From contig NZ_JABENB010000001.1 in assembly GCF_013002715.1 (NCBI RefSeq), positions 1,240,001-1,304,000 on the forward strand: 64,000 nucleotides of DNA. Direction: 5' to 3'. This document shows, piece after piece, positions 176-64,000 of the stretch. The position numbers were made by a program, and so were the translations under genes. This stretch comes from Flexivirga aerilata. GTDB lineage: Bacteria; Actinomycetota; Actinomycetes; Actinomycetales; Dermatophilaceae. The notes under the pieces were generated by a model. That model searched no databases. It was not told the DNA's origin and saw nothing but the letters and a program-made list of their open reading frames with translations. Numbering within the stretch: position 1 is the stretch's first letter; each line of letters opens with the position of its first letter.

Positions 176-538
176 ATGACCGAATACATGATCGTGATCC
201 TCGGCGACGCCGACCGATGGTGGACGACGATGACGCCGGAGGAACGCAAGCACGGTTACGCCGAATACGGGCGGTTCGCAAAGGAACTCACCGCGCGCGG
301 CCACCGCATCACCGGGGGAGCGGAGCTGCACGCCAGCGACGAGACCAAGCGCATCGCGCCGGGCAGCGACACCGTCACCGAGGGTCCGTATGCCGAGGCC
401 GTCGAACAGGTCGGTGGCTTCTACCTCGTCGAGACCGACGACGTCGACGACGTGCTCGACTGCTGCAAGATCATCACCGCGCTCGGTGACGGCGTCGAGC
501 TGCGCCGCACGGTGACCCAGCAGGAGCGGGCGTCATGA
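176..538 (+). CDS. YCII-related (DGPF) protein
   Basis: A 120-residue protein. The DGPF-type motif appears as TEGPYAEAVEQ followed by GGFYLVE near residues 65-85, and the N-terminus MTEYMIVILG is the usual first strand of this fold. A GGAG ribosome site lies 6 bases before the ATG. The stop overlaps the next ATG (ATGA), so it is probably translationally coupled to the third paralogue and then to the sigma factor. The family is known for its genomic link to ECF42 sigma factors, but no reaction is known. Function therefore stays open: a stress-linked partner or target of the sigma factor is an inference. Confidence 0.9.
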   Translation: MTEYMIVILGDADRWWTTMTPEERKHGYAEYGRFAKELTARGHRITGGAELHASDETKRIAPGSDTVTEGPYAEAVEQVGGFYLVETDDVDDVLDCCKIITALGDGVELRRTVTQQERAS

Positions 539-885
539 CGAAGTATCTCGTGCTGCTGGCCGGTCGCGAGGGCGAGTGGGAGGCCGCCACCGACGAGCAG
601 CGCGCGGGCTGGCACCGCGACCATCTCGACTTCGGGCGGGTCGTCGGCGACGACATCCTCGGCGGCGAGGCGCTCGCCGGCACCGACACCGCGACGACCG
701 TGCGACGGCGCAGCGGGAAGACCGAGCTGACCGACGGCCCGTATGCCGAGACCGCCGAACAGATCGGCGGGTTCTACCTGGTGCAGGCGCCCGATCTGGA
801 CCAGGTGCTCGCCTGGTGTGAGCTGCTGCCGGAGATCTACACCCTCGAGGTGCGCCCCTGCATCGAGGTCGACCTGTCCGCATGA
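535..885 (+). CDS. YCII-related (DGPF) protein
   Basis: A 116-residue paralogue of the two preceding genes, with TDGPYAETAEQIGGFYLVQ near residues 65-83. It starts inside the previous stop (ATGA) and its own stop overlaps the sigma-factor ATG in the same way, so the four genes form a tightly coupled operon. The three paralogues differ mainly at their ends, while the central GPF/Y...GGFYLV block is kept, which suggests one fold with divergent partners or hetero-oligomers. No catalytic residue assignment is possible from sequence alone. Confidence 0.9.
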   Translation: MTKYLVLLAGREGEWEAATDEQRAGWHRDHLDFGRVVGDDILGGEALAGTDTATTVRRRSGKTELTDGPYAETAEQIGGFYLVQAPDLDQVLAWCELLPEIYTLEVRPCIEVDLSA

Positions 886-2117
886 CCACGCTCGAGCAGG
901 TATGGCGCGACGAGTGGGGCCGGCTGCTGGCCCTGCTCGTCCGCCGGACCCGGCGGCTGGACCTGGCCGAGGACGCGCTCGCCGAGGCATTCGAGACCGC
1001 TGCCCGGCGCTGGCCGCAGGACGGCATCCCCGACAATCCCGCCGCCTGGCTGCTGACCGCGGCTCGGCGGCGGGTGCTGGACCGGCTGCGTGCCGAGGCG
1101 GTCGCGGCCCGCAAGCAGCCCCTGCTCGCGATGGAGGAGGACTCCCGGATGCGGCACCGCACGACGCCGGACGACGACCTGCTCCGCCTGGTGCTGCTCG
1201 CCGCTCATCCGTCGCTGTCGCCGGAGTCGGGCGCCGCCCTCACCCTGCGGCTGGTGCTCGGCGTGCAGACCGCCGACATCGCGCGGCTCTTCCTGGTCGG
1301 CGAGGCGACCATGGCGGCCCGGCTCACCCGCGCCCGCAAGAAGGTCGTCGCCGCGGGCGTGCCGCTCGCCATACCCGGTGACGACGTGCTGGCCGACCGG
1401 CTCGACACGGTCGCGAAGGTCGCCTATCTGGCCTTCACCGCCGGCTACGCGCCCGGCAGCGGGCCGGATGTCGTGCGTGCCGAGCTCGCCGGCGAGGCGA
1501 TCCGGCTGGTGGGACTCTTGCGGTCGAACAACCCTGCCGCACAAGCAAATCCGTCATTGATCGCGCTGGAGGCGTTGATGCTGCTGCAGCATTCCCGCCG
1601 CGACGCGCGGGTCGACGGCAGTGGCCGGATCGTGCTGCTGCCGGACCAGGACCGCACGCGCTGGCACCGCGCCGAGATCGACGAGGGTATGGCGCTGCTG
1701 CAGTCGCTCACCGGAGGCGGTGCGGCGCGGCTGTCGAGCGCGCTCGCCGCGGACTACCTGCTGCAGGCCCTGATCGCCGCCGAGCACGCGCGCGCGGCCC
1801 GGGCGCAGGACACCGACTGGGTGGTGATCAGCGACTTCTACCGGCAACTGGACGACCTCACCGGCTCACCGGTGGTGCGGCTCAACCGGGCGGTCGCCGT
1901 CGCCGAGGCGGGGGACGTCCCGGCCGCGTTCGCCCTGCTCGACGGGCTGGAGGACTCCCTCGGGCGGACGCACCGGTTGCCCGCGGTCCGGGCGGAGCTG
2001 CTGCGTCGCGCCGGGCGCGACGAGGAGGCGCTCGCGTCATACCGGCTGGCGGTGGGGATGTGCGGCAGCGACGCCGAGCGCGCCGCGCTGCAGCGCCGGA
2101 TCGACGATCTCGGCTGA
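882..2117 (+). CDS. ECF42-type RNA polymerase sigma factor
   Basis: A 411-residue protein, about twice the length of a minimal ECF sigma factor. Residues 1-75 resemble sigma region 2 (RRTRRLDLAEDALAEAFE) and residues about 110-165 region 4 (LRLVLGVQTADIARLFLV). The remaining 240 residues form the helical, TPR-like extension typical of ECF42. No anti-sigma gene is adjacent. ECF42 members are co-encoded with DGPF proteins, exactly the arrangement here, and their C-terminal extension is thought to control activity in place of an anti-sigma factor. It likely transcribes its own operon; the autoregulatory promoter would lie upstream of the window. The last codons carry a tandem 10-base duplication GATCTCGGCT (2106-2125) spanning the stop. 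Confidence 0.9.
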   Translation: MTTLEQVWRDEWGRLLALLVRRTRRLDLAEDALAEAFETAARRWPQDGIPDNPAAWLLTAARRRVLDRLRAEAVAARKQPLLAMEEDSRMRHRTTPDDDLLRLVLLAAHPSLSPESGAALTLRLVLGVQTADIARLFLVGEATMAARLTRARKKVVAAGVPLAIPGDDVLADRLDTVAKVAYLAFTAGYAPGSGPDVVRAELAGEAIRLVGLLRSNNPAAQANPSLIALEALMLLQHSRRDARVDGSGRIVLLPDQDRTRWHRAEIDEGMALLQSLTGGGAARLSSALAADYLLQALIAAEHARAARAQDTDWVVISDFYRQLDDLTGSPVVRLNRAVAVAEAGDVPAAFALLDGLEDSLGRTHRLPAVRAELLRRAGRDEEALASYRLAVGMCGSDAERAALQRRIDDLG

Positions 2118-2231: not shown

Positions 2232-3260
2232 ATGCCGATTGCGACCCCCGAGGTCTACGCCGAGATGCTCGACAAGGCCAAGAAGGGCGGCTTCGCCTAC
2301 CCGGCCATCAACGTCTCGAGCAGCCAGACCCTCAACGCGGCCATCAAGGGCTTCGCCGACGCCGGCAGCGACGGCATCATCCAGGTCTCGACCGGCGGCG
2401 CCGAATACTTCTCCGGCCTGGGTGTGAAGAACATGGTGACGGGTGCGCTCGCCATGTCGGCGTTCGCGCACGAGGTCGCATCGGCATACGACGTGAACAT
2501 CGCGCTGCACACCGACCACTGCCCGAAGGACAAGCTGGACACCTTTGTGCGTCCGCTGCTCGAGGCGTCGACCGAGCGCGTGAAGCAGGGCGGTCTGCCC
2601 TACTTCCAGTCGCACATGTGGGACGGCTCGGCGGTCGAACTGCACGAAAACCTCCAGATCGCAGAGGAATTGCTCGAGAAGTGCAAGGCCGCCAAGATCA
2701 TCCTGGAGATCGAGGTGGGCGTCGTCGGCGGCGAGGAGGACGGCGTCGAGGGCAAGATCGACGACAAGCTCTACTCCACCCCCGAGGACGCGATCGCCAC
2801 CGCGAAGGCGCTCGGCACCGGCGACAAGGGCTACTACATGACCGCCCTGACCTTCGGCAACGTGCACGGCGTCTACAAGCCGGGCAACGTCAAGCTCCGT
2901 CCCGAGGTGCTCAAGACTGCCCAGGACGCGGTGCACCAGGAGTTCAAGACCGCCGACGACAAGCCGTTCCACCTGGTCTTCCACGGCGGCTCCGGCTCCG
3001 ACCCCAAGGAGATCGAGGAAGCAGTCTCCTACGGCGTCGTCAAGATGAACGTCGACACCGACACCCAGTACGCCTTCACCCGCCCGGTCGCCGGCTGGAT
3101 GATGAGCAACTACGACGGCGTGCTCAAGATCGACGGCGAGGTCGGTGACAAGAAGAAGTACGACCCGCGCGCCTGGGGCAAGGCGGCCGAGACCGGTATG
3201 TCGGAGCGGGTCGTCGAGGCGTGCGAGCACCTCGGCTCGGCCGGCAAGCACATCTCCTGA
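2232..3260 (+). CDS. fba: Fructose-bisphosphate aldolase, class II
   Basis: A 342-residue zinc aldolase catalysing cleavage and formation of fructose 1,6-bisphosphate in the cytoplasm. Hallmarks are LHTDHCPKD near residue 93 (zinc ligand and catalytic Asp), the class IIA segment SHMWDGSAVEL, GNVHGVYKPG and the phosphate loop HGGSGSDP. The start at 2232 gives the standard N-terminus MPIATPEVYAEML and has GGAG 7 bases upstream; an in-frame upstream extension to 2151 is not expected in this family. The DUF3151 gene follows after 15 bases, an arrangement also found near fba in mycobacteria. Confidence 0.97.
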   Translation: MPIATPEVYAEMLDKAKKGGFAYPAINVSSSQTLNAAIKGFADAGSDGIIQVSTGGAEYFSGLGVKNMVTGALAMSAFAHEVASAYDVNIALHTDHCPKDKLDTFVRPLLEASTERVKQGGLPYFQSHMWDGSAVELHENLQIAEELLEKCKAAKIILEIEVGVVGGEEDGVEGKIDDKLYSTPEDAIATAKALGTGDKGYYMTALTFGNVHGVYKPGNVKLRPEVLKTAQDAVHQEFKTADDKPFHLVFHGGSGSDPKEIEEAVSYGVVKMNVDTDTQYAFTRPVAGWMMSNYDGVLKIDGEVGDKKKYDPRAWGKAAETGMSERVVEACEHLGSAGKHIS

Positions 3261-3275: not shown

Positions 3276-3680
3276 ATGAGTGAGAACCTGCTCGGCATAC
3301 CCGAGACGAAACTGCCTGTCGATCCTGCGAGTTCGGCCCTCGAGCAGGGCGTCGACCCGCGCGACGTCGCCCGCACCAACCCGAGCTCGTCGCTCGCCTG
3401 GGCGACCCTCGCGGAGGACGCACTCGCCGACGGTGACGTGATCGAGGCCTACGCGTTTGCCCGCACCGGCTACCACCGCGGGCTCGACGCGCTGCGCAAG
3501 TCGGGCTGGCGCGGCCAGGGCCCGGTGCCGTGGGAGCACGAACCCAACCGCGGCTTCCTCCGCGCGCTCGCGGCGCTCTCCAAGGCGGCCGACGCGATCG
3601 GCGAGACCGACGAGCAGCGGCGCACAGCCGACTTCCTGCGCGACTCGTCGGCCACCGGCGCCCGCGAGCTCGGCCTGTGA
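3276..3680 (+). CDS. DUF3151 protein
   Basis: A 134-residue cytoplasmic protein with no signal or membrane segment. It matches actinobacterial DUF3151 proteins: N-terminal LLGIPETKLP, central SLAWATLAEDAL, and GYHRGLDALRKSGWRGQGPVPW..NRGFLRAL, rich in helices. It is 15 bases downstream of fba, so the two are probably co-transcribed and the protein may act in central carbon metabolism. No biochemical function is known. The second codon cluster uses the rare Ile codon ATA inside a CGGCATAC octamer (3293-3300). Confidence 0.9.
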   Translation: MSENLLGIPETKLPVDPASSALEQGVDPRDVARTNPSSSLAWATLAEDALADGDVIEAYAFARTGYHRGLDALRKSGWRGQGPVPWEHEPNRGFLRALAALSKAADAIGETDEQRRTADFLRDSSATGARELGL

Positions 3681-4786
3681 ACCCCGGCGGCCACCCGACC
3701 TCCGGGGGTGGCCGCACGCCGCGTCGGGACGAGCGGTCGCCGGGCAAGCCGGCGACCGCTCTCGACGTGGCGCACCGCGCCGGGGTCTCCCGCACGGCGG
3801 TGTCGTTCGTGCTCAACGGCAAGAGCGACGGCAACATCGCCGAGGCCACCCGGCAACGCATCCTGGAGGCCGCGCGGGAGCTGGACTACCGGCCGCACCC
3901 GGTCGCCCGGAGCCTGCGCACCAGCCGGACGCAGCTCATCGGGCTGATCACCGACTCCATCGCGTCGAGCCCGTTCGCCGGGCAGTTGCTCGGCGGCGCC
4001 ACCGACCGCGCCCGGGAGCGCGGTCACCTCGTCGCGGTCTTCGACAGCGGGGAGCGCCCGGCGCTGGAGGAGCAGGCGGCTGAGGAGTTCGCCGGGCGCC
4101 GCGTCGACGGCCTGATCTATGCGTCGATGGGACTGCGCGAGGTCGCGTCAGTGCCGGATGTCGGTCTGCCGACGGTGCTGGCCAACTGCTTCGATGCGCG
4201 CGGTGAGTTGCCCTCCGTCATACCGGCCGAGGAGGAGGCGGGTGCGACCGCTGCCCGGTGTCTGCTCGACATGGGTCATCGGCAGATCGGCGTGATCACC
4301 GGTGACCTGGTCGTCGCAGGGCCGCGCCGGCTGGCCGGTTTCACAAAGACGCTCGCCGAGTCGGGTGTGAAACCGGTTGCGGTGCAAGAGCTTCGGGGTG
4401 GATGGACGATCGACGCCGGCTTCCACGCGACCCGCGCGATGCTGACGCGGGCGGACGGGCAGCTCCGGCAGCGACGTCCGACGGCGATCTTCTGCGTCAA
4501 CGACCGGGTGGCGGCGGGGGCGCTGCTCGCGGCTGCCGGCCTGGGGCTCGCGGTGCCCGCGGACCTCAGCATCCTCGGCTTCGACGACCAGGAGGAGCTG
4601 GCGGCCAACCTCGTGCCGAGCCTTTCCACCCTGGCCCTGCCGCACCGGGAGATGGGTCGTCAGGCCGTCGACCTGCTGCTCGACGTGGTCGAGCAGCCCG
4701 ACGCCCCGGTCACGCCGACGTTGCGTGAGCTCCCGTCTCCGCTCGTATGGCGAGAGTCGGTGGCAGCTCCGCCACCCACGCGGTGA
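3677..4786 (+). CDS. LacI-family transcriptional regulator
   Basis: About 369 residues. An N-terminal LacI helix-turn-helix (VAHRAGVSRTAVSFVLN, near residues 27-45) is followed by a periplasmic-binding-protein-like sensor domain (LIGLITDSIASSPFAGQLL; FCVNDRVAAGALLAAAGLGL; LSILGFDDQEELA). I chose GTG 3677, which overlaps the DUF3151 stop (GTGA) and adds a basic tail before the HTH. A start further upstream would run inside DUF3151. It ends overlapping, tail to tail, the GH32 gene of the sugar operon by 77 bases, so it very likely controls that operon in response to the imported fructoside or its product. Confidence 0.92.
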   Translation: MNPGGHPTSGGGRTPRRDERSPGKPATALDVAHRAGVSRTAVSFVLNGKSDGNIAEATRQRILEAARELDYRPHPVARSLRTSRTQLIGLITDSIASSPFAGQLLGGATDRARERGHLVAVFDSGERPALEEQAAEEFAGRRVDGLIYASMGLREVASVPDVGLPTVLANCFDARGELPSVIPAEEEAGATAARCLLDMGHRQIGVITGDLVVAGPRRLAGFTKTLAESGVKPVAVQELRGGWTIDAGFHATRAMLTRADGQLRQRRPTAIFCVNDRVAAGALLAAAGLGLAVPADLSILGFDDQEELAANLVPSLSTLALPHREMGRQAVDLLLDVVEQPDAPVTPTLRELPSPLVWRESVAAPPPTR

Positions 4787-6019: not shown

Positions 6020-6880
6020 TCACCGGAAGCTGCCGGTGGTCAGGCCCTCGCGGAGCGGGCGCTGGCCGAAGACGAAGACCAGCAGCGCCGGGATCATGGA
6101 GATCACCACGCCGGCGAGGACGACGGCGACGCTGCCGGTGCCCTTGTTGCCCTGCAGCGAGACCAGGCCGAGGGGCAGGGTGAAGTTCTTCTCGCTGATC
6201 GTCATGATCAGCGGCCGGAAAAACTCGTTCCAGTGGTAGTTGAAGGCGAGGATCCCGACGATGGCCAGGCCCGGGGTGGCGAGGGGCGCGTAGACCGACC
6301 GGAAGGTGCGCCACGGGCTGGCGCCGTCGATGGCCGCGGCTTCGGCGAGATCGGGCGGCAGCGTCATGAAGTACTGCCGCATGAGGAAGGTGCCGAACGC
6401 CGTGGGGATGGCCGGCAGGATCAGCGCGAGCAGGGTGTCCGACAAATGCATCCCGCGGATCAGCATGAAGACCGGGACGATCGTCACCTGCATCGGGACC
6501 ATCATCGTGGCCATGATCATCGAGAAGAGCACGCCGCGCCCGCGGAACGGCACCCGGGCGAAGATGTAGCCGCCGAGGCAGGCGGTGAACATCTGCCCGA
6601 CCGCGCACAGCCCGGTGACGAGCACGCTGTTGAGGATCAGCAGCCAGAGGTCCACCTGGTCGAAAACGGCTCGGAACGAATCAAATCCGAGATTGTCGAG
6701 GCTGAGCGGTGAGGAGCCGAGCGCCTCACTCGGCGGTCGTAGCGCGGTGAGGACGGTCCAGACGACGGGGCCGAGGGTGAGCGCCACGGCGACGGCCAGG
6801 AAGGCCACGCGGGGCGCGCCGGAGAGGAGCCGGCTGCGCCATACGGAACGAGGCGCGGGGTGCTGGGTGATCGTTGCCAT
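6020..6880 (-). CDS. ABC sugar transporter permease (MalG type)
   Basis: A 286-residue membrane protein with about six hydrophobic helices and the EAA loop EAAAIDGASPWRTFRSVYAPL before the C-terminus, which binds the ATPase. It is the second permease of a CUT1 carbohydrate importer. It lies 11 bases downstream of the MalF-like gene and 41 bases upstream of the GH32 gene. No ATPase gene is in the operon, so a shared ATPase (MsiK type, as known in other actinobacteria) encoded elsewhere is expected. Confidence 0.93.
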   Translation of the reverse strand: MATITQHPAPRSVWRSRLLSGAPRVAFLAVAVALTLGPVVWTVLTALRPPSEALGSSPLSLDNLGFDSFRAVFDQVDLWLLILNSVLVTGLCAVGQMFTACLGGYIFARVPFRGRGVLFSMIMATMMVPMQVTIVPVFMLIRGMHLSDTLLALILPAIPTAFGTFLMRQYFMTLPPDLAEAAAIDGASPWRTFRSVYAPLATPGLAIVGILAFNYHWNEFFRPLIMTISEKNFTLPLGLVSLQGNKGTGSVAVVLAGVVISMIPALLVFVFGQRPLREGLTTGSFR

Positions 6881-7851: not shown

Positions 7852-9245
7852 CGGTCGCTCCCGAGGGCCGTGCTGAGGTCGTCCTGGAGGCGGTGCATCG
7901 CACCGCGGGTGCCGGCGGCGGAGCCGGTGACGGCTCCGACGACGTTCTTGATCAGGGCCGTCTCGACGGCCGCCTGCTGCGGTGGCGCCGGGATCGGGCC
8001 GGTGCCCGGGAACTTGTCGAGCGTGTCGTAGAAGACCCGCCAGTGCGCCGGGCCCTTGCCCCGGTAGAGCGCCGCATCGACCAGGGAGCGGCGGGTCGGG
8101 GTGGTGTTCGGATCCGGGATCGACAGCTGCATGCCGCGCCGGGTGGTGCAGAACTTGATCCACTCCCACGCCTCGTCCTTGCGGTGCGAGGTGCGCATGA
8201 TCGCGTAGCCGGCCGCACCGAACTGTGCGCGCTGGCTGCGCCACCGCGGGAAGAACTGCACGTCGTAGGCGCTCCCCGGCATACCCGCCTCGTGCAGGCC
8301 CTGCACCCAGTAGCCGCCGGCGGGGGTCATGCCGACCCGGCCGCTCGCGAACTGCGGCACCAGGGTGTCGCCGCCGCCCTGGGCCGGACTGCTGCCGAGC
8401 CCCTCGGCGACGATCCGACGCAAGAAGTCGAAGGTCTCCTCCACGCGTGGGTCGAGCGCGTTCGGCTCCAGCCAGAGCGGCCCGCCGGCTCGCCCGGCAG
8501 CGGCTGGGTCACCGGAATAGAAGCGTTTCCAGAGCCATTCGCCGCCGGTGGCCTGCGTCTGCTTGAGGATCGAGGTGTCGTTGGCGTAGAGCCAGGGCAC
8601 GACGCCACCCCACAGCCGGTTGGTCCAGTAGAACGGCACGGTGCCCGCCGGCGAGGTGCGCTTGATCGCGCGCAGCATCGTGTGGAAGTCATCCTTGGTC
8701 CAGTCGTCGGCGGGCCGCTCCAGCCCGGCCCGGCGCAGCGCGGCCAGGTTGAGGTACATGTCGGCCGCGTTGAAATCGCCCGGCACCTGGTAGAGGTGGC
8801 CGCGATACATGAAGGCCTCGACCAGGGCCGGGTGCACGTCGGAGAAGTAGTCCTGCATGACGTCGGCGTCGCGCAGGACGTAGCTGTCGAGCGGTTCGGC
8901 GAGCCGGTCGGCGAACAACTGCGCGCCCTCGGTCGCCACCATCACCACGTCGGGCGGGGTGCCGGCGGCGACCAGCGTCAGCACCTTGGCGAAGAAGTCG
9001 CTCCAGTCGGCGCCCTGGATCGCCTGGAAGCGGACCGGGATGTCGGGGTGCTCGGCGTGGAAGGCCTGCAACAGGCCCTGCCGGGCCGCGGCGTCCTGCG
9101 CCGTGCCGAGGATCGCGACCGTCAGGTCGTCCGAGCCGCGCCCCGGGATGTCGCGGCCGGTCAGCCGCGGGAAGCCGGCGGTGAGGGCGGCGATCGTGCC
9201 GACTCCGGCGATGCCGAGGGCGCTGCGGCGGGTGAATTCACTCAT
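7848..9245 (-). CDS. Extracellular sugar-binding protein (family 1), Tat-type signal, no lipobox
   Basis: A 465-residue type 1 solute-binding protein and first gene of the fructoside import operon. The N-terminus MSEFTRRSALGIAGVG has a twin-arginine motif and a hydrophobic stretch to about residue 25, but no lipobox cysteine follows it. Most Gram-positive ABC binding proteins are lipid-anchored, so this one may be held by an uncleaved signal or released. Mid-region motifs such as DWTKDDFHTMLRAIK fit the MalE-like fold. GGAG lies 7 bases before the ATG. A 13-bp inverted repeat just upstream (9259-9271) is a candidate LacI-type operator. Confidence 0.9.
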   Translation of the reverse strand: MSEFTRRSALGIAGVGTIAALTAGFPRLTGRDIPGRGSDDLTVAILGTAQDAAARQGLLQAFHAEHPDIPVRFQAIQGADWSDFFAKVLTLVAAGTPPDVVMVATEGAQLFADRLAEPLDSYVLRDADVMQDYFSDVHPALVEAFMYRGHLYQVPGDFNAADMYLNLAALRRAGLERPADDWTKDDFHTMLRAIKRTSPAGTVPFYWTNRLWGGVVPWLYANDTSILKQTQATGGEWLWKRFYSGDPAAAGRAGGPLWLEPNALDPRVEETFDFLRRIVAEGLGSSPAQGGGDTLVPQFASGRVGMTPAGGYWVQGLHEAGMPGSAYDVQFFPRWRSQRAQFGAAGYAIMRTSHRKDEAWEWIKFCTTRRGMQLSIPDPNTTPTRRSLVDAALYRGKGPAHWRVFYDTLDKFPGTGPIPAPPQQAAVETALIKNVVGAVTGSAAGTRGAMHRLQDDLSTALGSDR

Positions 9246-13465: not shown

Positions 13466-13512
13466 ACTCCGATCCTGCCCGACGCGAGCCGGTCGCATGT
13501 GAGGATGGCGGC

Positions 13513-14968: not shown

Positions 14969-16568
<1,600 letters not shown>

Positions 16569-16613
16569 GCCAAACCGCTCTCCGGGCAGCGGCTTCTTCG
16601 CCATACTCCTCGC

Positions 16614-20918: not shown

Positions 20919-20926
20919 CCCGATGT

Positions 20927-36492: not shown

Positions 36493-36543
36493 GCTCCGAT
36501 CGTAGTCTCGCCCCGGCATACCTCCTCATCGAGCGGCCCACAA

Positions 36544-42690: not shown

Positions 42691-42726
42691 TGGCGCGGCG
42701 CGCGCCCTGCGGCAAGATGGTGCGAC

Positions 42727-45605: not shown

Positions 45606-45738
45606 CGGCGGCTCCTTCGTCGGGTATGCCGACTCTGCCACCGCGGGCCGCCCCGTGGGTGATTTACAGGGCGAGGAGTTTTGCTGGAAAGAACTCACCC
45701 CCGAGGCGCGTGCGGCGCCGCCCCGGGGAGTGAGTCGA

Positions 45739-49725: not shown

Positions 49726-49762
49726 TTCGCGGGGACTCCCGTCATACATGAAGGAAAACCAG

Positions 49763-51326: not shown

Positions 51327-51971
51327 TCAGAGGTCGGCGTTGTCGCCCCGTGCGCGGGTGCGCAGCATCGCCACGACGCCGCCGATCACGAGCAGGCCGA
51401 GGACCACGCCGCCGGCGATCAGCCACGGCTGGTTGTTGGTGCTGTCGGTCGGTGTCTGGCTGGTCGGCACCGGGCTGAGGTAGCTGGTCGACGCGCTGCT
51501 GGAGACGGTGCCGCCGCTCCCGGAGGCCGCGCTGCTGCCGGTGGCCGGGGGTACTGCGGAGTTGGTGGCGGCGGTCGACGACGACGATGCCCCACCGGTG
51601 ACGGTGAAGGCGAAGTTGCCCGAGATGGGGTGCCCGTCGGCGGAGCCGGCCCGCCATACGACCTGGAAGGTGCCGGCCGGCAGGCCCGCCTTCAACGGCT
51701 GGGTGACCTTCGCGCCGCTGACCTGCGGGCTGCCCTGCTGCACCTCGGCGCCGTCCGGTCCCTTGACCACGATCGCGGTGCCGGTCGTGCGGACGGTGTC
51801 GCTGAAGGTCAGCGTCACCTCCTGGGGAGCCGTCGCCACCGTGGCCCCCTTCGACGGCGTGGTGCTCGTCAATTCGTCGTGGGCGAGCGCCGTGCCGGTG
51901 CCGGTGAACCACAACACCGCGAGGACGGGCGTGAGCAGGAGCGCGAGGAGGCGTCGTGACATACCGAACAT
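51327..51971 (-). CDS. CopC-domain copper-binding membrane-anchored protein
   Basis: A 214-residue exported protein. After the signal peptide (LLALLLTPVLAVLWFTGTGTA) the mature protein starts HDELTSTTPSKGATV, the CopC motif whose N-terminal His binds Cu2+. The beta domain (TLTFSDTVRTTGTAIVVKG, VVWRAGSADGHPISGNFAF) has the second His in DGHPISG. A Ser/Thr/Ala-rich linker leads to a C-terminal membrane helix (WLIAGGVVLGLLVIGGVVAM). A CopD partner is not adjacent. Start 51971 or 51962. Confidence 0.88.
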   Translation of the reverse strand: MFGMSRRLLALLLTPVLAVLWFTGTGTALAHDELTSTTPSKGATVATAPQEVTLTFSDTVRTTGTAIVVKGPDGAEVQQGSPQVSGAKVTQPLKAGLPAGTFQVVWRAGSADGHPISGNFAFTVTGGASSSSTAATNSAVPPATGSSAASGSGGTVSSSASTSYLSPVPTSQTPTDSTNNQPWLIAGGVVLGLLVIGGVVAMLRTRARGDNADL

Positions 51972-52097
51972 ACGGAGGAGTATGCCGGGGCGCCTGCGCG
52001 CGACACGACGGTGGTCAACTGTCAAGACACGAACGGACAGCTTCCGGACAGCTTCCGGCGGCTCGCGCGGCTCGGGCAGCTCAGCAGTTCGGTCCGT

Positions 52098-55108: not shown

Positions 55109-55202
55109 GACGGTGCTCCTTGCTCGGGGTGTTGTTGTCGTGCCCCAGTAGGCCGTCCGCGCCCGGCGCCGCACCTCCCGCGACCGGCTCGTCATACCTC
55201 CG

Positions 55203-55272: not shown

Positions 55273-56535
55273 ATGACCACCGCACCGACCGCCTCCTGGT
55301 GGCGTTCCCGCCGCCCGCTGGCGGTGCTGTGCACCGTGCTGATCGTCGTGGTGGCGATGAGCGCGCAGGTCATGGCGGCCGCATTCGCGCAATACCGTCA
55401 CGACGGTGTCACCGACCAGCGGCTGGCCGACCAGACGCAGATCGACGGGGTGTTCCTCGCGGTCGGATTGCTGGGCATCTGCCTCGCGGTGCTGCTGATC
55501 TGGCGGCACCGCCGGCCGGTGTGGATCAGCCTCGGCATCAGCGCGCTCACGATCGTGCTCCCGCTCGACGGGCTGACCCCGCTCTTCGCCCTGTATGCCG
55601 TGGCGCTCGCGGTGACCGGTCCCTGGCTGTGGGGCTGCATCGCGGCCGCCGTGGCCGCCGAGGTCGCCGCGACGTGGCGCGACACCCGCGGCACCCAGGT
55701 GTCGTCGTGGCTGCGCGGCCTCGTGTCAGTGCGCGACGGCGCGCAATTCCCTTGGTGGCTGGTCGGATTGGTGGCGTTGCTCTTCGTCGCCGTCACCGTC
55801 GGCCTGGCGCTGCTGGTGCGCAGCCGTCGCGACCTCAGCGTCAGCCGTGCCCACGAAACTCGCAGCGAGACCAAGCTGCACGCGCTCGGTGAGGAGCTCG
55901 CGCGGCAGACCGAGCGTGAGCGCATCGCCCGCGAGGTGCACGACGTGCTCGGTCACCGGTTGTCGCTGCTGTCGTTGCACGCCGCCGGGCTCGAGCTCGT
56001 GGCCGACGACCCGAAGCTGGCCAAGAGCGCGTCGCTGGTGCGGCAGGGCGCCCAGGAGTCGATGAACGACCTGCGCTCGCTGCTCGCGGTGCTGCGTCGC
56101 CCCGAGGACCCGGACGTCAGCGAGACCGTGCCGACCCTGCGCGAGCTCCCGTCGCTGATCGACGAGTCGCTCGCCGCGGGCAGCCCGGTCGCGGCGTCGG
56201 TCTTCATCGACCAGTCGGCGACGCTCGACGACCGGGTCGGTCGCAGCGCTTACCGGATCACCCAGGAGCTGCTCACCAACGCCCGCCGGCACGCGCCCGG
56301 GGTGCCCGTGCGGTTGCAGATCGACGCCGGGCCCGAGCGCGGCGTCGAGATCAGCACCGCCAACCGGGCCGCGGACCCGAGCGACCGCCGGGTGCGCCCG
56401 GGCAACGGCCTGACCGGGGTGCACGAGCGGGTGCAGCAGGCGGGCGGCGAGTCGTGGGTGTGGATCGACGACGAGGGTGCCTTCCGCACGCTGGTGCGGT
56501 TGCCGTGGGAATGGAGAGGGGCCGGCAATGAGTGA
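55273..56535 (+). CDS. Sensor histidine kinase, NarL-system type
   Basis: A 420-residue kinase with four to five membrane helices in the N-terminal half (VLCTVLIVVVAMSAQVMA; VFLAVGLLGICLAVLLIW), a HisKA_3 domain (ERERIAREVHDVLGHRLSLL, His phosphorylated) and an HATPase (ELLTNARRHAPGVPV; GNGLTGVHERV). Typical for actinobacterial kinases without an extracellular sensor. It pairs with the overlapping NarL-type regulator; the stimulus is unknown. Confidence 0.92.
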   Translation: MTTAPTASWWRSRRPLAVLCTVLIVVVAMSAQVMAAAFAQYRHDGVTDQRLADQTQIDGVFLAVGLLGICLAVLLIWRHRRPVWISLGISALTIVLPLDGLTPLFALYAVALAVTGPWLWGCIAAAVAAEVAATWRDTRGTQVSSWLRGLVSVRDGAQFPWWLVGLVALLFVAVTVGLALLVRSRRDLSVSRAHETRSETKLHALGEELARQTERERIAREVHDVLGHRLSLLSLHAAGLELVADDPKLAKSASLVRQGAQESMNDLRSLLAVLRRPEDPDVSETVPTLRELPSLIDESLAAGSPVAASVFIDQSATLDDRVGRSAYRITQELLTNARRHAPGVPVRLQIDAGPERGVEISTANRAADPSDRRVRPGNGLTGVHERVQQAGGESWVWIDDEGAFRTLVRLPWEWRGAGNE

Positions 56536-57196: not shown

Positions 57197-57258
57197 GCTT
57201 CGTCATACGGCATCGGACGCCGGGAGACACCCGGCACCAGAGGAGCTGACGGGAAAGA

Positions 57259-57706: not shown

Positions 57707-58753
57707 TCACCCCTTCTTCGCCCACTCCAGCAGGCGATCGAGCGGCCAGGTGTCGACGATCCGCTCCAGTGGTACGCCGAGTCGCTGCGCGCGCTCGCAG
57801 CCGTATTCGACGAAATCCAGCTGCCCCGGCGCGTGCGCATCGCTGTCGATCGAGAACAAGCAGCCGGCGGCCATCGCCTGCTCGATCAGCTCGTCGGGCG
57901 GGTCGCAGCGCTCGGGCCGGGAGTTGATCTCGACGGCGACGTCGTGCTCCACGCAGGCCGCGAAGACCGCCGCAGCGTCGAAGGCCGACTGCTCCCGGCG
58001 CAACTTCTTGCCACGGCGTTCGCCGTCGATCATCCGGCCGGTGCAGTGACCGAGGATGTTGGTGCGCGGGTCGCCGATCGCGGCGACCATCCGCCGCGTC
58101 ATCGGCGCCGACGGCATCTTCAGCTTCGAGTGCACCGACGCGACCCGGATGTCGAGGCGGTCCAGCAGCTTCGGGTCCTGGTCGAGCGCGCCCTCGTCGA
58201 GGATGTCGACCTCGATGCCCTTGAGCAGCCGGAAATCGGTCAGCTGCTCGTTCATCTTGTCGATGAGCCGCAGCTGTTTGCCCAGGCGTTCGGCGGACAA
58301 TCCATTCGCGACCCGCAGGCTGGGGGAGTGATCGGTGAGCGCGATGTAGTCGTGGCCGAGTTCCATTGCGGTCGCGACCATCTCGGGGATCGGCGACCCT
58401 CCGTCGCTCCAGTCGGAGTGGCAGTGCAGATCGCCCTTGAGCGCAGCGCGGTACTTCTCGCCGCCCTCGACGAGCCGCTCGGGCGACTTGTCCTCCAGGC
58501 TGACCAGGTATGCCGGGCGTTTCCCCGCGAGCGCCTCCGCGACCACCGCCTCGGTCGACTTGCCGATGCCCGGCAGCTGGTCGAGGGTGCCGGTGTCGGC
58601 GAGGCGGCGCAGCTCGTCGGCGGGGGTGCGCAGCACGGTGTCCGCGGCCTGCCGGAACGCCTTGACCCGGTAGGTGCCGGCCCGGGATCGCTCCAGCAGG
58701 AAGGCGATCCGGCGCAGCGCGTCCACCGGTTCGATCGAGGCGTGAGTCGTCAT
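57707..58753 (-). CDS. PHP-domain protein with PolX-type N-terminal domain
   Basis: A 348-residue protein. Residues 1-90 resemble the PolX helix-hairpin-helix region (YRVKAFRQAADTV; DQLPGIGKSTEAVVAEAL). The rest is a PHP phosphoesterase with metal motifs DLHCHSDWSDG, YIALTDHS, ASVHSK, EINS and SDAHA. The DNA polymerase palm of PolX is missing, so it is a nuclease/phosphatase-type relative rather than a repair polymerase. Metal ligands look complete. Start ATG 58753. Confidence 0.9.
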   Translation of the reverse strand: MTTHASIEPVDALRRIAFLLERSRAGTYRVKAFRQAADTVLRTPADELRRLADTGTLDQLPGIGKSTEAVVAEALAGKRPAYLVSLEDKSPERLVEGGEKYRAALKGDLHCHSDWSDGGSPIPEMVATAMELGHDYIALTDHSPSLRVANGLSAERLGKQLRLIDKMNEQLTDFRLLKGIEVDILDEGALDQDPKLLDRLDIRVASVHSKLKMPSAPMTRRMVAAIGDPRTNILGHCTGRMIDGERRGKKLRREQSAFDAAAVFAACVEHDVAVEINSRPERCDPPDELIEQAMAAGCLFSIDSDAHAPGQLDFVEYGCERAQRLGVPLERIVDTWPLDRLLEWAKKG

Positions 58754-58776
58754 ACGGCGATTATCGGGTGTTCGCG

Positions 58777-59300: not shown

Positions 59301-60266
59301 TCAGCCGGCGTCGGCGACCAACCGCGCGAACCGGTCCAGGTCGACGTTCCCGCCCGAGAGGATGACGCCGACCCGCGCGCCCGGCATCGTCGGCGCGAGG
59401 ACACGGGCCGCCGCGTAGGCGAGTGCACCGGTCGGCTCCACCACCAGCTTGCAGGTGTGCGCGAGGCTGCGCATGCCGGCCGCCAGCTCGTCGTCCGTCG
59501 CGAGCACGATGTCCTCGACCTGCTCCCGGATGATCGGGAAGGTCAGCGCGCCGAGTGCGGTCGTCTGGGCCCCGTCAGCGAGCGTCTCCGGCACGTCGAT
59601 CGTGACGATCTCACCGCTGTCGAAGGACCGTTTGCCGTCGTTGCCCGCGGCCGGTTCTGCGCCGAAAACCCTTGTTGCAGAGCGCATTCCGTGCACCGCG
59701 ACCGCCGTGCCGGAGAGCAGTCCGCCGCCGCCGAGCGGTGCGATCACCGCGTCGAGGTCGGCGACCTCCTGCATCAGCTCCAGTGCCGCGGTGCCCTGCC
59801 CGGCCATGATCGCCGGGTCGTCGAACGGCGGCACCACCGTGCGGCTCTCGCGCTCGGCGAGGTCCGCGGCGATCGCGGCGCGATCCTCGGTGCGGCGGTC
59901 ATAGGGCACGATCGTGGCGCCATACCCTCTGGTCGCCACCAACTTGATCTGCGGGGCGTCCGTCGGCATGACGATCGTCGCGGGTATGCCGAGCAGCCCC
60001 GCGGCCAGCGCGACCGCCTGGGCGTGATTGCCCGACGAGAACGCGACGACGCCGGCGCGACGCTCGTCGGGTGACAGCTGGGCCAGCCGGTTGTAGGCGC
60101 CGCGGAACTTGAACGCGCCCATCCGCTGGAGGTTCTCGCACTTCAGGTGCAGCTCGATGCCGAGCTCGTCATCGAGCCGGCGCGAGGTGACGACGGGTGT
60201 GCGGTGGGCGACTCCGGCGATGCGCGACGCTGCCGCCTGCACATCGGCGAAGTCGATCGCGCTCAC
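59301..60266 (-). CDS. Threonine/serine dehydratase (PLP)
   Basis: A 321-residue fold-type II PLP enzyme. The Schiff-base Lys is in FKFRGAYN near residue 51, the phosphate loop in SSGNHAQAVA and GGGGLLSG, and the C-terminal SGGNVD. There is no ACT or regulatory domain, so it is the catabolic or serine-racemase-like type rather than biosynthetic IlvA. Start GTG 60266 overlaps the preceding gene's stop by 4 bases. Confidence 0.93.
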   Translation of the reverse strand: MSAIDFADVQAAASRIAGVAHRTPVVTSRRLDDELGIELHLKCENLQRMGAFKFRGAYNRLAQLSPDERRAGVVAFSSGNHAQAVALAAGLLGIPATIVMPTDAPQIKLVATRGYGATIVPYDRRTEDRAAIAADLAERESRTVVPPFDDPAIMAGQGTAALELMQEVADLDAVIAPLGGGGLLSGTAVAVHGMRSATRVFGAEPAAGNDGKRSFDSGEIVTIDVPETLADGAQTTALGALTFPIIREQVEDIVLATDDELAAGMRSLAHTCKLVVEPTGALAYAAARVLAPTMPGARVGVILSGGNVDLDRFARLVADAG

Positions 60267-60800: not shown

Positions 60801-62054
60801 TCAGGCGTGTTCGCCCGCCGGCATCGCCGCTGCGGGAGCGACCCTCGCGGCGTGGGCGTCGAGCAGCAGCCGCCCGGCGACGGCCGCCAGCACGGCGGCG
60901 AGGGCTCCGGCGGTGACCGTCACCGCGAACGCCGGCGTCTCCCCGCCGAGGTCGGCCAGCCGGCCGGCCAGTGCGGCACCCACGGCATAGCCGAGCCCGG
61001 TGGCCGCGGCCAGCAACGTCATCGCGGCGCCGGTGCGGGACGGCGGCGTGAGCTGCTCACCGAGCGTGAACGTCGTGATCATGTATGGCGCAACGCAGCA
61101 CCCGAGCAGCACCAGCGCGGGGGCGAGCGCCGCGAGCGAGTGGATGAGCAGCAGCGGAGTGGCGAGCACGAACAGCCCGACCGCGGTCACCCGCCACCGG
61201 GTGACGTAGCCGATCCGGGTGGGCAGCGCCGCCATACTGATGCCGGCGACGACGCTACCCACGCCGAGCAGCGCCTGCACCAGACCGGCGAGGCCTTCGT
61301 GCCCGGCGGCGGTCGCGATGACGGTCGTGCCGGTCTGCACCGAGCCGAAGACGTTGCCGATCACGAACTGCGCGAGCGCGAGCACCGCGAGCGCGGGGGT
61401 CAGCAGCCGTCCGGCCGCGGCGGTGTGCGCGCTCGCGGTGCGCAGCCGGGCGGTCGGGTGCACCGCGAACCAGGTGCCGAAGACGACCAGCAGCACGGCG
61501 GCGGTGCCGATGCCGACGCCCGGCTCGAGCAGCGCCGCGATGGTGCCGACGATGGCCGGGCCGAGCACGAACGACGCCTCGTCGGCCGAGCCTTCGTAGG
61601 AGAAGGCGGTGTCGATGAGCCGGCCGGACTGGGCGCCGCGGCTGCGGGCGCCGATGATCGGCCGCCAGCGCACCCGGGCGAGCGGACCCGCCTGCGGCAT
61701 CGTCAGTCCCGCGAACGCCGACGCGGCCGCCGCCCAGCCCCACGCGATGCCGGTCTCGGCGGCCACCACGACCAGCGCCAGGCCGACCGCGCTCGCCCAC
61801 GACTGCACGAGGACGACCGGGCGCTGCCCGAACCGGTCGGACGCCGCGCCCAGCACCGGGGCACCGATCGCGTTGGCGATGGCGAGCGCGCCGGCGCAGG
61901 CACCGCCCGCGCCGAAACTTCCGGTGGTGTGCGCGACGAGCAGCAGCACGCCCATCTGGCTCATCGCGAGCGGCAGTCGGGCGAGGAAGGCGACGAGGAT
62001 GTAGGTGGGTCCGGTCAGGCCGAACAGGTGGCGGTATGACGCAGCGGGTGACAC
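60801..62054 (-). CDS. MFS exporter
   Basis: A 417-residue 12-helix carrier with DRFGQRPVVLVQSW (motif A loop after helix 2), GWAAAASAFAGLTMPQAGPLARVRW and symmetric second half. It resembles actinobacterial multidrug/efflux-type MFS proteins. Start GTG 62054 is a guess; AAAGG lies 12 bases upstream. The in-frame start at 62108 is less likely. Substrate unknown. Confidence 0.85.
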   Translation of the reverse strand: MSPAASYRHLFGLTGPTYILVAFLARLPLAMSQMGVLLLVAHTTGSFGAGGACAGALAIANAIGAPVLGAASDRFGQRPVVLVQSWASAVGLALVVVAAETGIAWGWAAAASAFAGLTMPQAGPLARVRWRPIIGARSRGAQSGRLIDTAFSYEGSADEASFVLGPAIVGTIAALLEPGVGIGTAAVLLVVFGTWFAVHPTARLRTASAHTAAAGRLLTPALAVLALAQFVIGNVFGSVQTGTTVIATAAGHEGLAGLVQALLGVGSVVAGISMAALPTRIGYVTRWRVTAVGLFVLATPLLLIHSLAALAPALVLLGCCVAPYMITTFTLGEQLTPPSRTGAAMTLLAAATGLGYAVGAALAGRLADLGGETPAFAVTVTAGALAAVLAAVAGRLLLDAHAARVAPAAAMPAGEHA

Positions 62055-62309
62055 GGGGGTCGGACGCCTTTCGGGGGTAGCGCGATGCGGTGCGCGGCTT
62101 CCCTCCACCAGCCACGCGGGACCCTTGGCTACCCCTCGATTCTACGAACGCCGTCAAACCGGGGCGTCCCGTCATACGAGCGTCAGGTAACGGTGGAGGA
62201 ACGATCGGGAAAACGCCTGTCGCGATCGTTGGTGCGCGCCCGGCGGTTTGTCATGGTGGATGAAGACGGTCACAACGGGGAGGCCGTCAGTCGACTATTC
62301 GGGGAAGTC

Positions 62310-63533
62310 ATGGCACAGGTGGACAGGCGCACGGCCATCGCAACAGGGGCAACGATCAGCGCGACGGCCGCATTGGCCGCGTGCGGCACCCTGAAGAACC
62401 CGACCACGGCTCCGCCGACGAGCGCCCGTCCGGTCGGCAGCACCTCCAGCTCGGCCCCACCGAAGGCCCGGCTCATCGGGGACGGATCGACCTCGGACAC
62501 CGGGCCGCAGCCCCACCAGCCGACGGCGGAGAAGTTGGAGCCGGGACAGGCGCCGCCGCAGTTCGTGGTGATCTCCTGGGACGGCGCCGGCGAGGTCGCC
62601 GGGCTCAACCTGCTGTCCCACTTCCGTGAGGTGGCCAAGGAGACCAAGGCGTCGATGACGCTCTTCCTCTCCGGGCTGTTCCTGCTGCCGGCCGCCAAGA
62701 AGGACCTCTACCGGCCGCCGCGGCACCAGGTCGGCGCCTCCGACATCGGCTACCTCGACGACCGCGACATCCACGCCACCATCGACAACATCGGCAAGGC
62801 GTGGCTCGAGGGGCACGAGATCGGCACTCATTTCAACGGCCACTTCTGCGGCCGGGGCGGCGTCAGCGAATGGTCGCCGGCCGAGTGGCGCAGCGAGATC
62901 GAGCAGGCGAAGTCGTTCGTGAAGAACTGGCGGACCAACACCGGCTTCACCGACCTGCCGCCGCTGCCGTTCGACTACGACAAGGAGCTCGTCGGCGGCC
63001 GCACGCCGTGCCTGGAGGGTGCGGACAACCTGCGGGTGGCGGCCTCGCAGCTGGGCTGGCGCTACGACACCAGCAAGACCGGCATCCAGATGTGGCCCGG
63101 CAGGGACCGCAATCTCTGGGACGTGTCCATGCAGTCGATCCCGTTCGCCGGGCACTCCGGCCAGGTGATCTCGATGGACTACAACATCATGTACAACCAG
63201 TCCGGCGGCACCCGTGGCAAGCCGTCGATGCGGCCGAAGTGGCAGCAGGAGGCGGTCGACACCTACCTGGCCGGCTTCCTGCGCGCCTACGACTTCAACC
63301 GGGCGCCGCTGATCATCGGCAACCACTTCGAGGGCTGGAACGGTGGCATCTACATGACAGCCGTCGAGCAGGTCATGCGCAAGATCGTCGATTATCCGGA
63401 CGCGCGGATCGTGTCCTTCCGGCAGCTGATCGACTGGGTGGAGGAGCAGGACCCGGCCGTGCTGGCCAAGCTGCGCAGCCTGCCCTACGGCAGCAAGCCG
63501 ACCGGTGGCTGGGCCCAGTTCCTCGCTGTATGA
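62310..63533 (+). CDS. Tat-exported lipoprotein, polysaccharide-deacetylase-like
   Basis: A 407-residue lipoprotein. The signal has the twin-arginine DRRTAIATGATISATAALAA and lipobox LAAC (Cys near 28). A Thr/Ser/Pro-rich stalk follows. The core begins QFVVISWDGAGE and has SMTLFLSGLFLL and HEIGTHFNGHFC, which fit a divergent NodB-like deacetylase: a metal Asp and the HxxxH pair. I cannot confirm every catalytic residue, so activity is inferred. GGGGAAG lies before ATG 62310. The gap 62055-62309 holds no gene that I see. Confidence 0.75.
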   Translation: MAQVDRRTAIATGATISATAALAACGTLKNPTTAPPTSARPVGSTSSSAPPKARLIGDGSTSDTGPQPHQPTAEKLEPGQAPPQFVVISWDGAGEVAGLNLLSHFREVAKETKASMTLFLSGLFLLPAAKKDLYRPPRHQVGASDIGYLDDRDIHATIDNIGKAWLEGHEIGTHFNGHFCGRGGVSEWSPAEWRSEIEQAKSFVKNWRTNTGFTDLPPLPFDYDKELVGGRTPCLEGADNLRVAASQLGWRYDTSKTGIQMWPGRDRNLWDVSMQSIPFAGHSGQVISMDYNIMYNQSGGTRGKPSMRPKWQQEAVDTYLAGFLRAYDFNRAPLIIGNHFEGWNGGIYMTAVEQVMRKIVDYPDARIVSFRQLIDWVEEQDPAVLAKLRSLPYGSKPTGGWAQFLAV

Positions 63534-63550
63534 CGGGAGTCGCGCCCGGC

Positions 63551-64000
63551 TCAGCCCTCTGATCTGACCGCCGAAAGCGCTTCTGCCGCAACGGGTTCGG
63601 CGAGCGCCCGGTCCGCGGGCACCAGGCCTACCCGGGTGCGCCGGTCGAGCAGGTCGTCGACGTCGAGAGCGCCCTCGTGACTGAGTGCGAAGTCCAGCTC
63701 GGCGGGCGTGGTCGGCACCGTGTCGCCGATCGGGAGGTTGCGGGCCGGGTCGGCAGACAGCACCTCGGCCGCCTCGGCGCCGTAACGGCGGACCAGCCGG
63801 TCGGGGAGCTCGCCGTTGACGGGACCAGCCGGATCTGCGCCGACGAGAGCTGTTTTCGCGGTCACGCAGGGCCCGGCGGTGAGGCTGCTCCGGCGGACTG
63901 CGGCGTCGACCGCGTCCTGCGCCATACGGCGGTAGGTGGTGAGTTTGCCGCCGACGACGGTGATCATCCCGCTCGACCCGGTCAGCACCGCGTGTTTGCG
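63551..64000 (-). CDS. glpD: Glycerol-3-phosphate dehydrogenase, C-terminal part (N-terminus outside window)
   Basis: The visible 145-150 residues include GMITVVGGKLTTYRRMAQDAVDAAV, the FAD-domain end of GlpD, and the C-terminal helical cap (TPAELDFALSHEGALDVDDLLDRRTRVGL). The reading frame continues past base 64000. It oxidises glycerol-3-phosphate to DHAP at the membrane with FAD. Ends with GTVRSEG-like tail just before the window's geneless 63534-63550 spacer. Confidence 0.9.
   Translation of the reverse strand, partial: RKHAVLTGSSGMITVVGGKLTTYRRMAQDAVDAAVRRSSLTAGPCVTAKTALVGADPAGPVNGELPDRLVRRYGAEAAEVLSADPARNLPIGDTVPTTPAELDFALSHEGALDVDDLLDRRTRVGLVPADRALAEPVAAEALSAVRSEG

Follow-up and report, generated by a model that had tools for sequence, protein, structure and literature searches.

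DNA-uptake sequences, i.e., words for self-recognition in natural transformation, are reported as established in two Gram-negative families, the Pasteurellaceae and the Neisseriaceae (PMC7811141). Those of Neisseriaceae (the DNA uptake sequence, DUS) are described as occurring in dialects at 943–5,918 copies per genome, with some members of the family lacking them (PMC3630211), and both the DUS and the uptake signal sequence (USS) of Pasteurellaceae are reported to lack an orientation bias round the chromosome (PMC1939737). Here, we consider a 64-kb stretch of the chromosome of the actinobacterium Flexivirga aerilata (the window; NZ_JABENB010000001.1, positions 1,240,001–1,304,000), in which an octamer with one free position, GTATGNCG, is dispersed over genes and spacers on both strands. 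We regard it as a probable actinobacterial DNA-uptake sequence and hold this reading with moderate confidence.

The likeness to the neisserial DUS lies in the thousands of copies, the genus-level variants differing by one or two letters and the existence of word-free family members (PMC3630211). With both DUS and USS, the octamer shares its equal presence on the two strands of the sampled stretches, and with the USS, as described, a short core without orientation bias that lies in genes and spacers alike (PMC1939737; PMC2346458). It departs from the DUS in several respects: it has eight letters with one free position; it reaches 5,000–27,000 copies in rich genomes; its hosts are high-GC actinobacteria with an Flp/Tad rather than a type IVa pilus; and its copies show an orientation-specific repulsion. 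Further, the DUS dialects are reported to share the core CTG (PMC3630211), which is absent from GTATGNCG, GTACGNCG, GGATGCCG and their complements, and the reader of the DUS is ComP, a class III type IV minor pilin, whereas the class III pilin domain (PF07963) was detected in 0/5 genomes of the octamer genus. With neither a detected ComP-type pilin in the genus nor a CTG core, the octamer is not a neisserial DUS. From the USS, it differs in the word itself and in that no flanking conserved segments were found. A search of the literature by titles and the starts of abstracts, with subscription journals and bioRxiv largely outside its reach, gave no actinobacterial uptake sequence among the matches listed, which is no proof of absence.

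Excess and retention of the octamer

An exact scan finds 95 copies of GTATGNCG in the window, 47 on the forward and 48 on the reverse strand, precisely the tally reached by hand in the preliminary description of this DNA. The excess over chance claimed there stands as well, since 100 dinucleotide-preserving shuffles of the window yield a mean of 4.11 copies (sd 1.99) and a maximum of 10, and its estimate that about 93 % of GTATG pentamers fall inside the octamer is correct for the 102 pentamers present. The free position is occupied by C in 34, G in 30, A in 25 and T in 6 of the window copies, and the flanking bases carry little information. All single-letter variants are rarer than the octamer, the commonest being GGATGNCG with 234 occurrences against 620 in 464 kb. 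Across the whole source genome (G000; 4,007,297 bases in 6 contigs, the window lying in contig C1) there are 5,019 copies, 2,555 forward and 2,464 reverse, against 434 forward and 419 reverse for the reversed-pattern control GCNGTATG, which is a conservative control because it itself holds GTATG. Thus, the enrichment is not confined to the window.

Called genes make up 90 % of the window and contain 80 of its 95 copies (a copy being inside when more than half of it overlaps a gene from our own simple caller). Over the sampled stretches, density is 1.64/kb outside called genes and 1.39/kb within (95 and 536 of 631 sites); this comparison and the spacing analyses omit two low-density stretches, L049 and L050. 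Occurrence in both genes and spacers had been noted before, as had the copy at 19756; a strong hairpin is indeed predicted at window 19736–19793, outside called genes, with this copy inside its loop side. The two omitted stretches, the start of contig C3 (L049; 7 octamers in 20 kb) and contig C4 (L050; 24.7 kb of lower GC, 0.634, with 5 octamers in 20 kb), look like acquired DNA, and an 11.0-kb element inside the pilus gene tadA of a family member (G011) has 1 octamer against 10 in 9.0 kb of flanking DNA. Thus, in the few possibly mobile stretches examined, possibly foreign DNA is sparse in octamers.

That the excess might be a by-product of codon usage, codon-pair bias or amino-acid repeats can be practically dismissed. 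One register is indeed richest, with 27 of 76 window copies, as a codon-driven word would have it. Yet synonymous shuffling with the protein and within-gene codon usage held fixed leaves 8.2 copies against the 76 observed in window genes, and 50.6 against 399 in 17 other stretches; all six registers are elevated; and the density in non-coding DNA is the higher of the two. These shuffles, registers and densities refute an origin of the octamer in codons or amino acids and bear out the earlier contention that the word rather than the codons is conserved, in all frames. The null is moreover conservative, since the octamer itself supplies rare codons: in the sampled genes, it wholly contains 82 of 104 ATA, 219 of 568 TAT and 27 of 139 GTA codons. 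An ATA codon is forced at 1367, 3293, 4216 and 16508, as previously stated; the Gly-Ile-Pro or Val-Ile-Pro contexts given for all four hold only for 3293 and 4216, respectively, the other two reading Ala-Ile-Pro.

Comparison with congeners indicates that octamer copies are selectively retained relative to control words. In aligned orthologous DNA, window copies are still exact at 65 of 78 sites in G004 (88 % identity overall), 35 of 53 in G001, 28 of 55 in G002 and 20 of 48 in G003, against 129/228, 34/176, 42/170 and 37/135, respectively, for two control words, which are the two most abundant of six words and were picked after inspection, the other four being rarer. Changed octamer sites are seldom a single base off in the more distant congeners (3/18 in G001, 7/27 in G002 and 5/28 in G003), whereas changed control-word sites often are (78/142, 65/128 and 55/98); this rarity has a p of 0.002 for G001.

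Dialects in related genera

Of 58 genomes compared, the source among them, the 5 from the genus each have 5,019–8,019 copies of GTATGNCG, and 15 further genera of the family have it at 3 to 12 times control. The remaining family genomes have 34–1,232 copies (0.8 to 2.5 times control), and the other families of the order in this set show no clear excess of this spelling. If a ratio to control of 3 or more is taken to define a bearer, GTATGNCG is borne by 20 of the 36 genomes of the family; the 24 family bearers counted below comprise these, three genomes with other dialects and G019 with a word of its own. Word discovery that presupposed no motif recovered the dialect GTATGCCG in G011, where C occupies the free position in 32/32 copies of one stretch, GGATGCCG in G020 and G030, and GTACGNCG in G027, all of the same family. 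These words likewise survive codon shuffling, with 71 against 19.4 and 67 against 15.4 for GGATGCCG, in five registers each, and 134 against 37.8 for GTACGNCG, in six.

GTACGNCG is also prominent, in four to six registers, in Austwickia (4,637 copies genome-wide against 817 of the reversed pattern), Nocardioides pocheonensis (8,151 against 1,000), Kribbella pittospori (27,065 against 1,939) and a Marmoricola metagenome-assembled genome (5,491 against 747). A survey of 246 genomes of the class found up to 12,732 copies of it in 5.3 Mb; in 32 well-completed genomes from nine families it stands at some 5 times control or higher, and several groups, among them those with the smallest genomes, are at or below control. 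The ratio to the reversed pattern is a rough yardstick here, being 3.4 in Streptomyces canus, in whose locus GTACGNCG is nonetheless outside the top words. Thus, GTATGNCG is one dialect of a wider family of words that includes GGATGCCG and GTACGNCG in other genera, the latter in at least nine families of the class, and in some genera no such word was found.

Several further words were not counted as dialects. GTATGCG in G024 (L149, L150), the octamer minus its free letter, occurs 17 times in 40 kb and 11 times in genes against 2.6 by shuffling (maximum 8), and is possibly a shortened dialect. By codon shuffling, GGAGNCGG stands at 65 against 32.8 in G010, GTACGNCG at 67 against 38.1 in G028, GGATGCCG at 13 against 4.3 in G005 and CGGCGTCG at 40 against about 14.6–14.8, in five registers, in Promicromonospora (L064). 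In two species of Demequina (L054, L107), GGACGATGCG reaches 8 against 1.5 and 11 against 1.8 after codon shuffling and may be a further dialect; a third Demequina locus, L076, has none. In Brevibacterium (L084, L124), CGCCGAGG occurs 33 times against 4.7 and 31 times against 7.2 under a Markov model, and after codon shuffling 30 times against 9.8 in L084, in three registers only. Words from Arthrobacter, Kocuria, Blastococcus, Modestobacter and Cellulomonas were dropped, being outside the top three after codon shuffling or present mainly in one to three registers. As a separate observation, L157 and L158 (G031) have an excess of the palindrome GACGCGTC across all six registers, at 30 against 7.0 with each site counted twice.

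Spacing by orientation

The most informative new result is that the spacing of octamers depends on their orientation, which, like the dialects, goes beyond what the preliminary description foresaw. Neighbouring copies at most 80 bp apart in the source genome comprise 21 divergent, 19 convergent and 4 same-orientation pairs. Relative to uniform placement, same-orientation pairs stand at 0.05 below 50 bp, 0.27 at 50–100 bp, 0.48–0.70 at 100–500 bp, 0.76 at 500–700 bp and 0.85 at 700–1,000 bp, and near 1 farther out, while opposite pairs remain around 1 (0.86 to 1.25), except that convergent pairs are at 0.61 within 50 bp and 2.0 at 50–100 bp. When orientations are permuted over the observed positions, 31.4 of the 64 pairs below 100 bp are expected to share an orientation, and 7 do; in the successive distance bins past this, 49 of 144 do against 70.9 and 90 of 234 against 114.6, and at 600–1,000 bp 146 of 332 against 162.8 (p 0.038). 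The repulsion recurs in G003, in G001/G002/G004 together and in seven other genera pooled, in each case up to 600 bp and without significance beyond, and three control words have no such repulsion.

Concurrently, there is no consistent strand skew in the sampled stretches of chromosome, and over the 49 GTATGNCG-clade stretches with at least 10 copies the strands are more equal than chance would make them (chi-square 17.8 on 49 df, lower-tail p 1e-5). It thus seems that the two strands each bear an evenly spread set of octamers of their own, and this, with the same-orientation repulsion, implies that the word is directional or strand-specific in its action, with a reach of about 0.6–1 kb. In the GTACGNCG genomes (L087, L114, L116, L051), divergent copies below 50 bp stand at 4.9 times expectation; because GTAC is self-complementary and CGNCGTACGNCG amounts to two overlapping GTACGNCG, an excess of opposite pairs below 100 bp is at least partly trivial there and the spacing of GTACGNCG at such distances is confounded.

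Copies of the octamer in the window, all exact matches to GTATGNCG, each spelled by its actual letters
Spelling	Position in window	Strand	Remark
GTATGCCG	388..395	+	
GTATGCCG	741..748	+	
GTATGGCG	900..907	+	
GTATGGCG	1367..1374	-	ATA codon forced
GTATGGCG	1687..1694	+	
GTATGACG	2035..2042	-	
GTATGCCG	2482..2489	-	
GTATGTCG	3196..3203	+	
GTATGCCG	3293..3300	-	ATA codon forced
GTATGACG	4216..4223	-	ATA codon forced
GTATGGCG	4745..4752	+	
GTATGGCG	6837..6844	-	
GTATGCCG	8277..8284	-	
GTATGCCG	9749..9756	-	
GTATGACG	12464..12471	+	close opposite pair with 12502
GTATGACG	12502..12509	-	
GTATGGCG	13460..13467	-	
GTATGCCG	13705..13712	-	
GTATGCCG	14198..14205	+	
GTATGACG	15321..15328	-	
GTATGCCG	15577..15584	+	
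GTATGGCG	15889..15896	+	
GTATGACG	16039..16046	+	
GTATGGCG	16508..16515	-	ATA codon forced
GTATGGCG	16599..16606	-	
GTATGCCG	17365..17372	+	
GTATGACG	17805..17812	-	
GTATGACG	18043..18050	+	
GTATGGCG	18983..18990	-	
GTATGCCG	19149..19156	+	
GTATGCCG	19492..19499	+	
GTATGACG	19611..19618	-	
GTATGGCG	19756..19763	+	loop side of predicted hairpin
GTATGCCG	20154..20161	-	
GTATGCCG	20925..20932	+	
GTATGCCG	21560..21567	+	
GTATGACG	23004..23011	-	close opposite pair with 23082
GTATGCCG	23082..23089	+	
GTATGTCG	23810..23817	-	
GTATGCCG	24777..24784	+	close opposite pair with 24806
GTATGTCG	24806..24813	-	
GTATGGCG	25752..25759	-	
GTATGGCG	26288..26295	+	
GTATGCCG	26511..26518	-	
GTATGACG	27737..27744	-	
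GTATGTCG	27858..27865	+	
GTATGGCG	29683..29690	-	
GTATGGCG	30142..30149	+	
GTATGCCG	30577..30584	+	
GTATGACG	32869..32876	-	
GTATGACG	33323..33330	+	
GTATGGCG	33827..33834	+	
GTATGACG	35186..35193	-	
GTATGCCG	35788..35795	+	
GTATGCCG	36064..36071	-	
GTATGCCG	36514..36521	-	
GTATGGCG	37620..37627	-	
GTATGTCG	37752..37759	-	
GTATGGCG	38524..38531	-	
GTATGACG	40346..40353	+	
GTATGCCG	40773..40780	+	
GTATGGCG	41816..41823	+	
GTATGACG	42264..42271	-	
GTATGGCG	42688..42695	+	
GTATGCCG	43061..43068	-	
GTATGACG	43525..43532	+	
GTATGGCG	44719..44726	-	
GTATGGCG	44843..44850	-	
GTATGCCG	45624..45631	+	
GTATGGCG	47254..47261	-	
GTATGGCG	48747..48754	+	
GTATGACG	49740..49747	-	close opposite pair with 49786
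GTATGCCG	49786..49793	+	
GTATGGCG	49929..49936	+	
GTATGACG	50227..50234	+	
GTATGCCG	50455..50462	+	
GTATGGCG	51652..51659	-	
GTATGCCG	51980..51987	+	
GTATGCCG	53057..53064	-	
GTATGCCG	53306..53313	+	
GTATGTCG	54200..54207	-	close opposite pair with 54275
GTATGCCG	54275..54282	+	
GTATGACG	55190..55197	-	
GTATGCCG	55593..55600	+	
GTATGACG	57201..57208	-	
GTATGCCG	58508..58515	+	
GTATGACG	58748..58755	-	
GTATGGCG	59918..59925	-	close opposite pair with 59984
GTATGCCG	59984..59991	+	
GTATGGCG	61083..61090	+	
GTATGGCG	61230..61237	-	
GTATGACG	62034..62041	+	
GTATGACG	62170..62177	-	
GTATGACG	63528..63535	+	
GTATGGCG	63920..63927	-	

Candidate machinery and competing explanations

The transformation of Micrococcus luteus is reported to require Flp/Tad genes (PMC4322843) of a type that is also present in the octamer genus, and the terms "uptake sequence" and "sequence-specific" are absent from the main texts of the papers examined on that organism (PMC4322843 included). 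The competence and Tad-pilus genes that might be expected alongside an uptake sequence are all represented: ComEC is found in 56/58 relatives, the HHH_3 domain of ComEA exceeds the cut-off in 55/58 and adjoins ComEC where coordinates were compared, and TadE is found in 57/58. A conserved cluster, tadA-tadB-tadC-flp with three small pilin-like genes, runs from C1:1663502 onward in the source genome (gene order and size underlie the names tadB, tadC and flp, and weak matches to Pfam those of the three pilin-like genes), and a second Tad cluster lies at C1:2506984–2507501. The tadA ortholog of the conserved cluster occurs in 52/58 relatives and, at least in part, in all 24 family bearers; G010, G017 and G018, the family members that lack it, show no clear excess of GTATGNCG. 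The ortholog occurs also in 27 of the 32 GTACGNCG-rich genomes of the class (split in two in 3, partial in 3 more). The class sets were hand-picked from the 246 genomes as rich (about 5 times control or more) or poor (about 1.2 times or less) at a completeness of about 90 % or higher, the 30 poor genomes being a selection from more.

In three genera (G011, G031 and G021), tadA is broken at the codons of GGTQAGKT, which we take to be its Walker A motif. The 11-kb insert of G011 (L302) carries two serine recombinases (Pfam Resolvase/Recombinase); in G031 (L303/L304), 35 kb separates the two halves, the first of which adjoins a recombinase-like gene, so called from its N-terminal sequence and not by Pfam; and in G021 (L305), only the first part was found, with no recombinase in the 3.5 kb beyond. 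Match coordinates alone place splits of 4 to 54 kb in tadA of G132, G188, G146 and G246 from other families, which suggests more independent insertions. It is possible that these codons are a recurrent attachment site whose occupation disables the pilus, and mobile elements may gain by switching the Flp/Tad pilus off. A parallel might be struck with the comK prophage of Listeria as a mobile element that breaks a competence gene.

Density, dialects, strand balance, retention and gene background together indicate that the octamer works like a DNA-uptake sequence, as the preliminary description had proposed. The excess is genome-wide and persists with codon context held fixed, so that the proposal withstood the tests set for it, and the uptake function itself we infer from these patterns. 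The directional behaviour of the word suggests either strand-specific import or another enzyme for which the octamer plays the part of Chi; of the two, we prefer an uptake sequence that is probably read strand-specifically. Under such a mechanism, a sequence-specific receptor on the cell surface would bind DNA with the octamer; it would probably be a partner protein of the conserved Flp/Tad pilus or one of its minor pilins, with the Tad minor-pilin-like proteins of 133, 144 and 153 aa and ComEA as candidates. The DNA would then be handed to ComEA and passed through ComEC as one strand, with import or recombination depending on the octamer lying on the entering strand. Alleles with a perfect octamer would be imported more often, and such molecular drive could create and maintain the thousands of copies on either strand. 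A new copy would be driven only weakly where the same strand already has an octamer within about 0.6–1 kb, and in this model it is this weakness that gives rise to the orientation-specific spacing.

Chi is likewise an over-represented octamer and acts directionally, and an unlikely competitor to uptake is a Chi-like signal: the octamer would be read one way by a helicase-nuclease that is not RecBCD but AdnAB (in actinobacteria) or AddAB, and this enzyme would turn from degradation to RecA loading. With each orientation serving enzymes that arrive from one side, further copies in the same orientation would be redundant. The same-orientation repulsion is compatible with action in one orientation; the directional reach of about 0.6–1 kb without a consistent convergent/divergent difference is what a directional Chi would give; and Chi words vary between bacteria. 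Against it, there are about 1,000 Chi sites per genome in E. coli, far fewer than the 5,000–27,000 octamers, and RecC (PF04257), which belongs to the RecBCD complex that reads Chi, went undetected in 16/24 family bearers, 14 of these 16 being at least 96 % complete, including G007 (6,035 copies) and G008 (5,258 copies); it is found in 8/24 bearers and in 7/12 other family genomes. RecBCD-Chi itself is thereby excluded and was rejected, the equal use of strands earlier advanced against Chi being a weak argument alone. Chi and the short, dispersed, non-palindromic KOPS words for FtsK loading are reported as strand-skewed (PMC3269016), unlike the octamer in the sampled stretches.

Improbable, too, and slightly more so, is that the octamer binds a nucleoid or chromosome-organizing protein, or serves another strand-reading process, under ordinary selection. 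Its even spacing and balance across strands would suit such a role, and Karlin is cited for a part of evenly spaced USS in replication, repair or compaction by a source that itself doubts it (PMC1939737). However, the word is non-palindromic, imposes a coding cost seen in its share of ATA codons, changes between genera and was not found in some, and its orientation matters for its spacing. Selection on a modification or restriction site, e.g., a non-palindromic methylation motif, seems very unlikely: an asymmetric eight-letter word with one free position does resemble a methyltransferase target, but modification alone does not explain a more than tenfold excess, and the orientation-specific spacing and the rarity of one-base-off states would be left without explanation.

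Several observations weigh against the octamer being an uptake sequence read through the Flp/Tad pilus. Uptake in Haemophilus is reported to be independent of orientation (PMC1939737), so that orientation-specific repulsion is no known property of uptake sequences, and the GTACGNCG and GGATGCCG genomes, with fewer sites (112 to 192 per set), showed no repulsion beyond 100 bp. In the nearest congener, G004, 10 of the 13 changed sites differ from the octamer at a single base; such states are expected of recent changes, which limits the bimodality to larger distances. The word of G019, the 10-mer GTATGCCGCT with 34 copies in 100 kb (L161, L162, L220, L221, L293), lies outside called genes in 27 cases and within them in 7 (0.2 by shuffling), and is perhaps no dialect but a repeat of intergenic DNA, or else a dialect biased towards such DNA; without G019, tadA is present in 23/23 bearers against 10/13 others. 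The class III pilin, found in 12/58 relatives, is detected in only 2/24 bearers (G009 and G029), with no ComP-like receptor in sight. The com and tad genes are near-universal in the order and do not explain which genera bear a word. The tadA ortholog is also present in family non-bearers and GTACGNCG-poor genomes, and its association with the word is weak by Fisher's test with kinship ignored (family, 24/24 against 9/12, p 0.031; class, 27/32 against 17/30, p 0.025). Finally, five GTACGNCG-rich genomes (G122, G162, G198, G208 and G263; 98–100 % complete) have only tadA paralogs of 41–45 % identity, which speaks against a strict need for the ortholog, unless another Tad set serves.

A broader proposal, which we advance tentatively and with less conviction than the uptake function, is that an uptake language of actinomycetes, i.e., of monoderms, extends over much of the class. 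GTACGNCG would be its ancestral or widespread form, changed to GTATGNCG and GGATGCCG in certain lineages; reading would be strand-specific, through the Flp/Tad pilus and a receptor other than ComP; mobile elements would counter it by insertion at the Walker A codons of tadA; and the spacing on each strand would reflect the typical length of import, under about 1 kb. The orientation-specific spacing offers a measurable property against which models of uptake and recombination can be tested. If the octamer is indeed an uptake sequence, then parts of a medically and industrially important class, with Kribbella and Nocardioides among the examples, would transform with self-recognition; the dialects would predict partners in gene exchange; and actinomycetes that are hard to engineer might become accessible to DNA furnished with the matching octamer.

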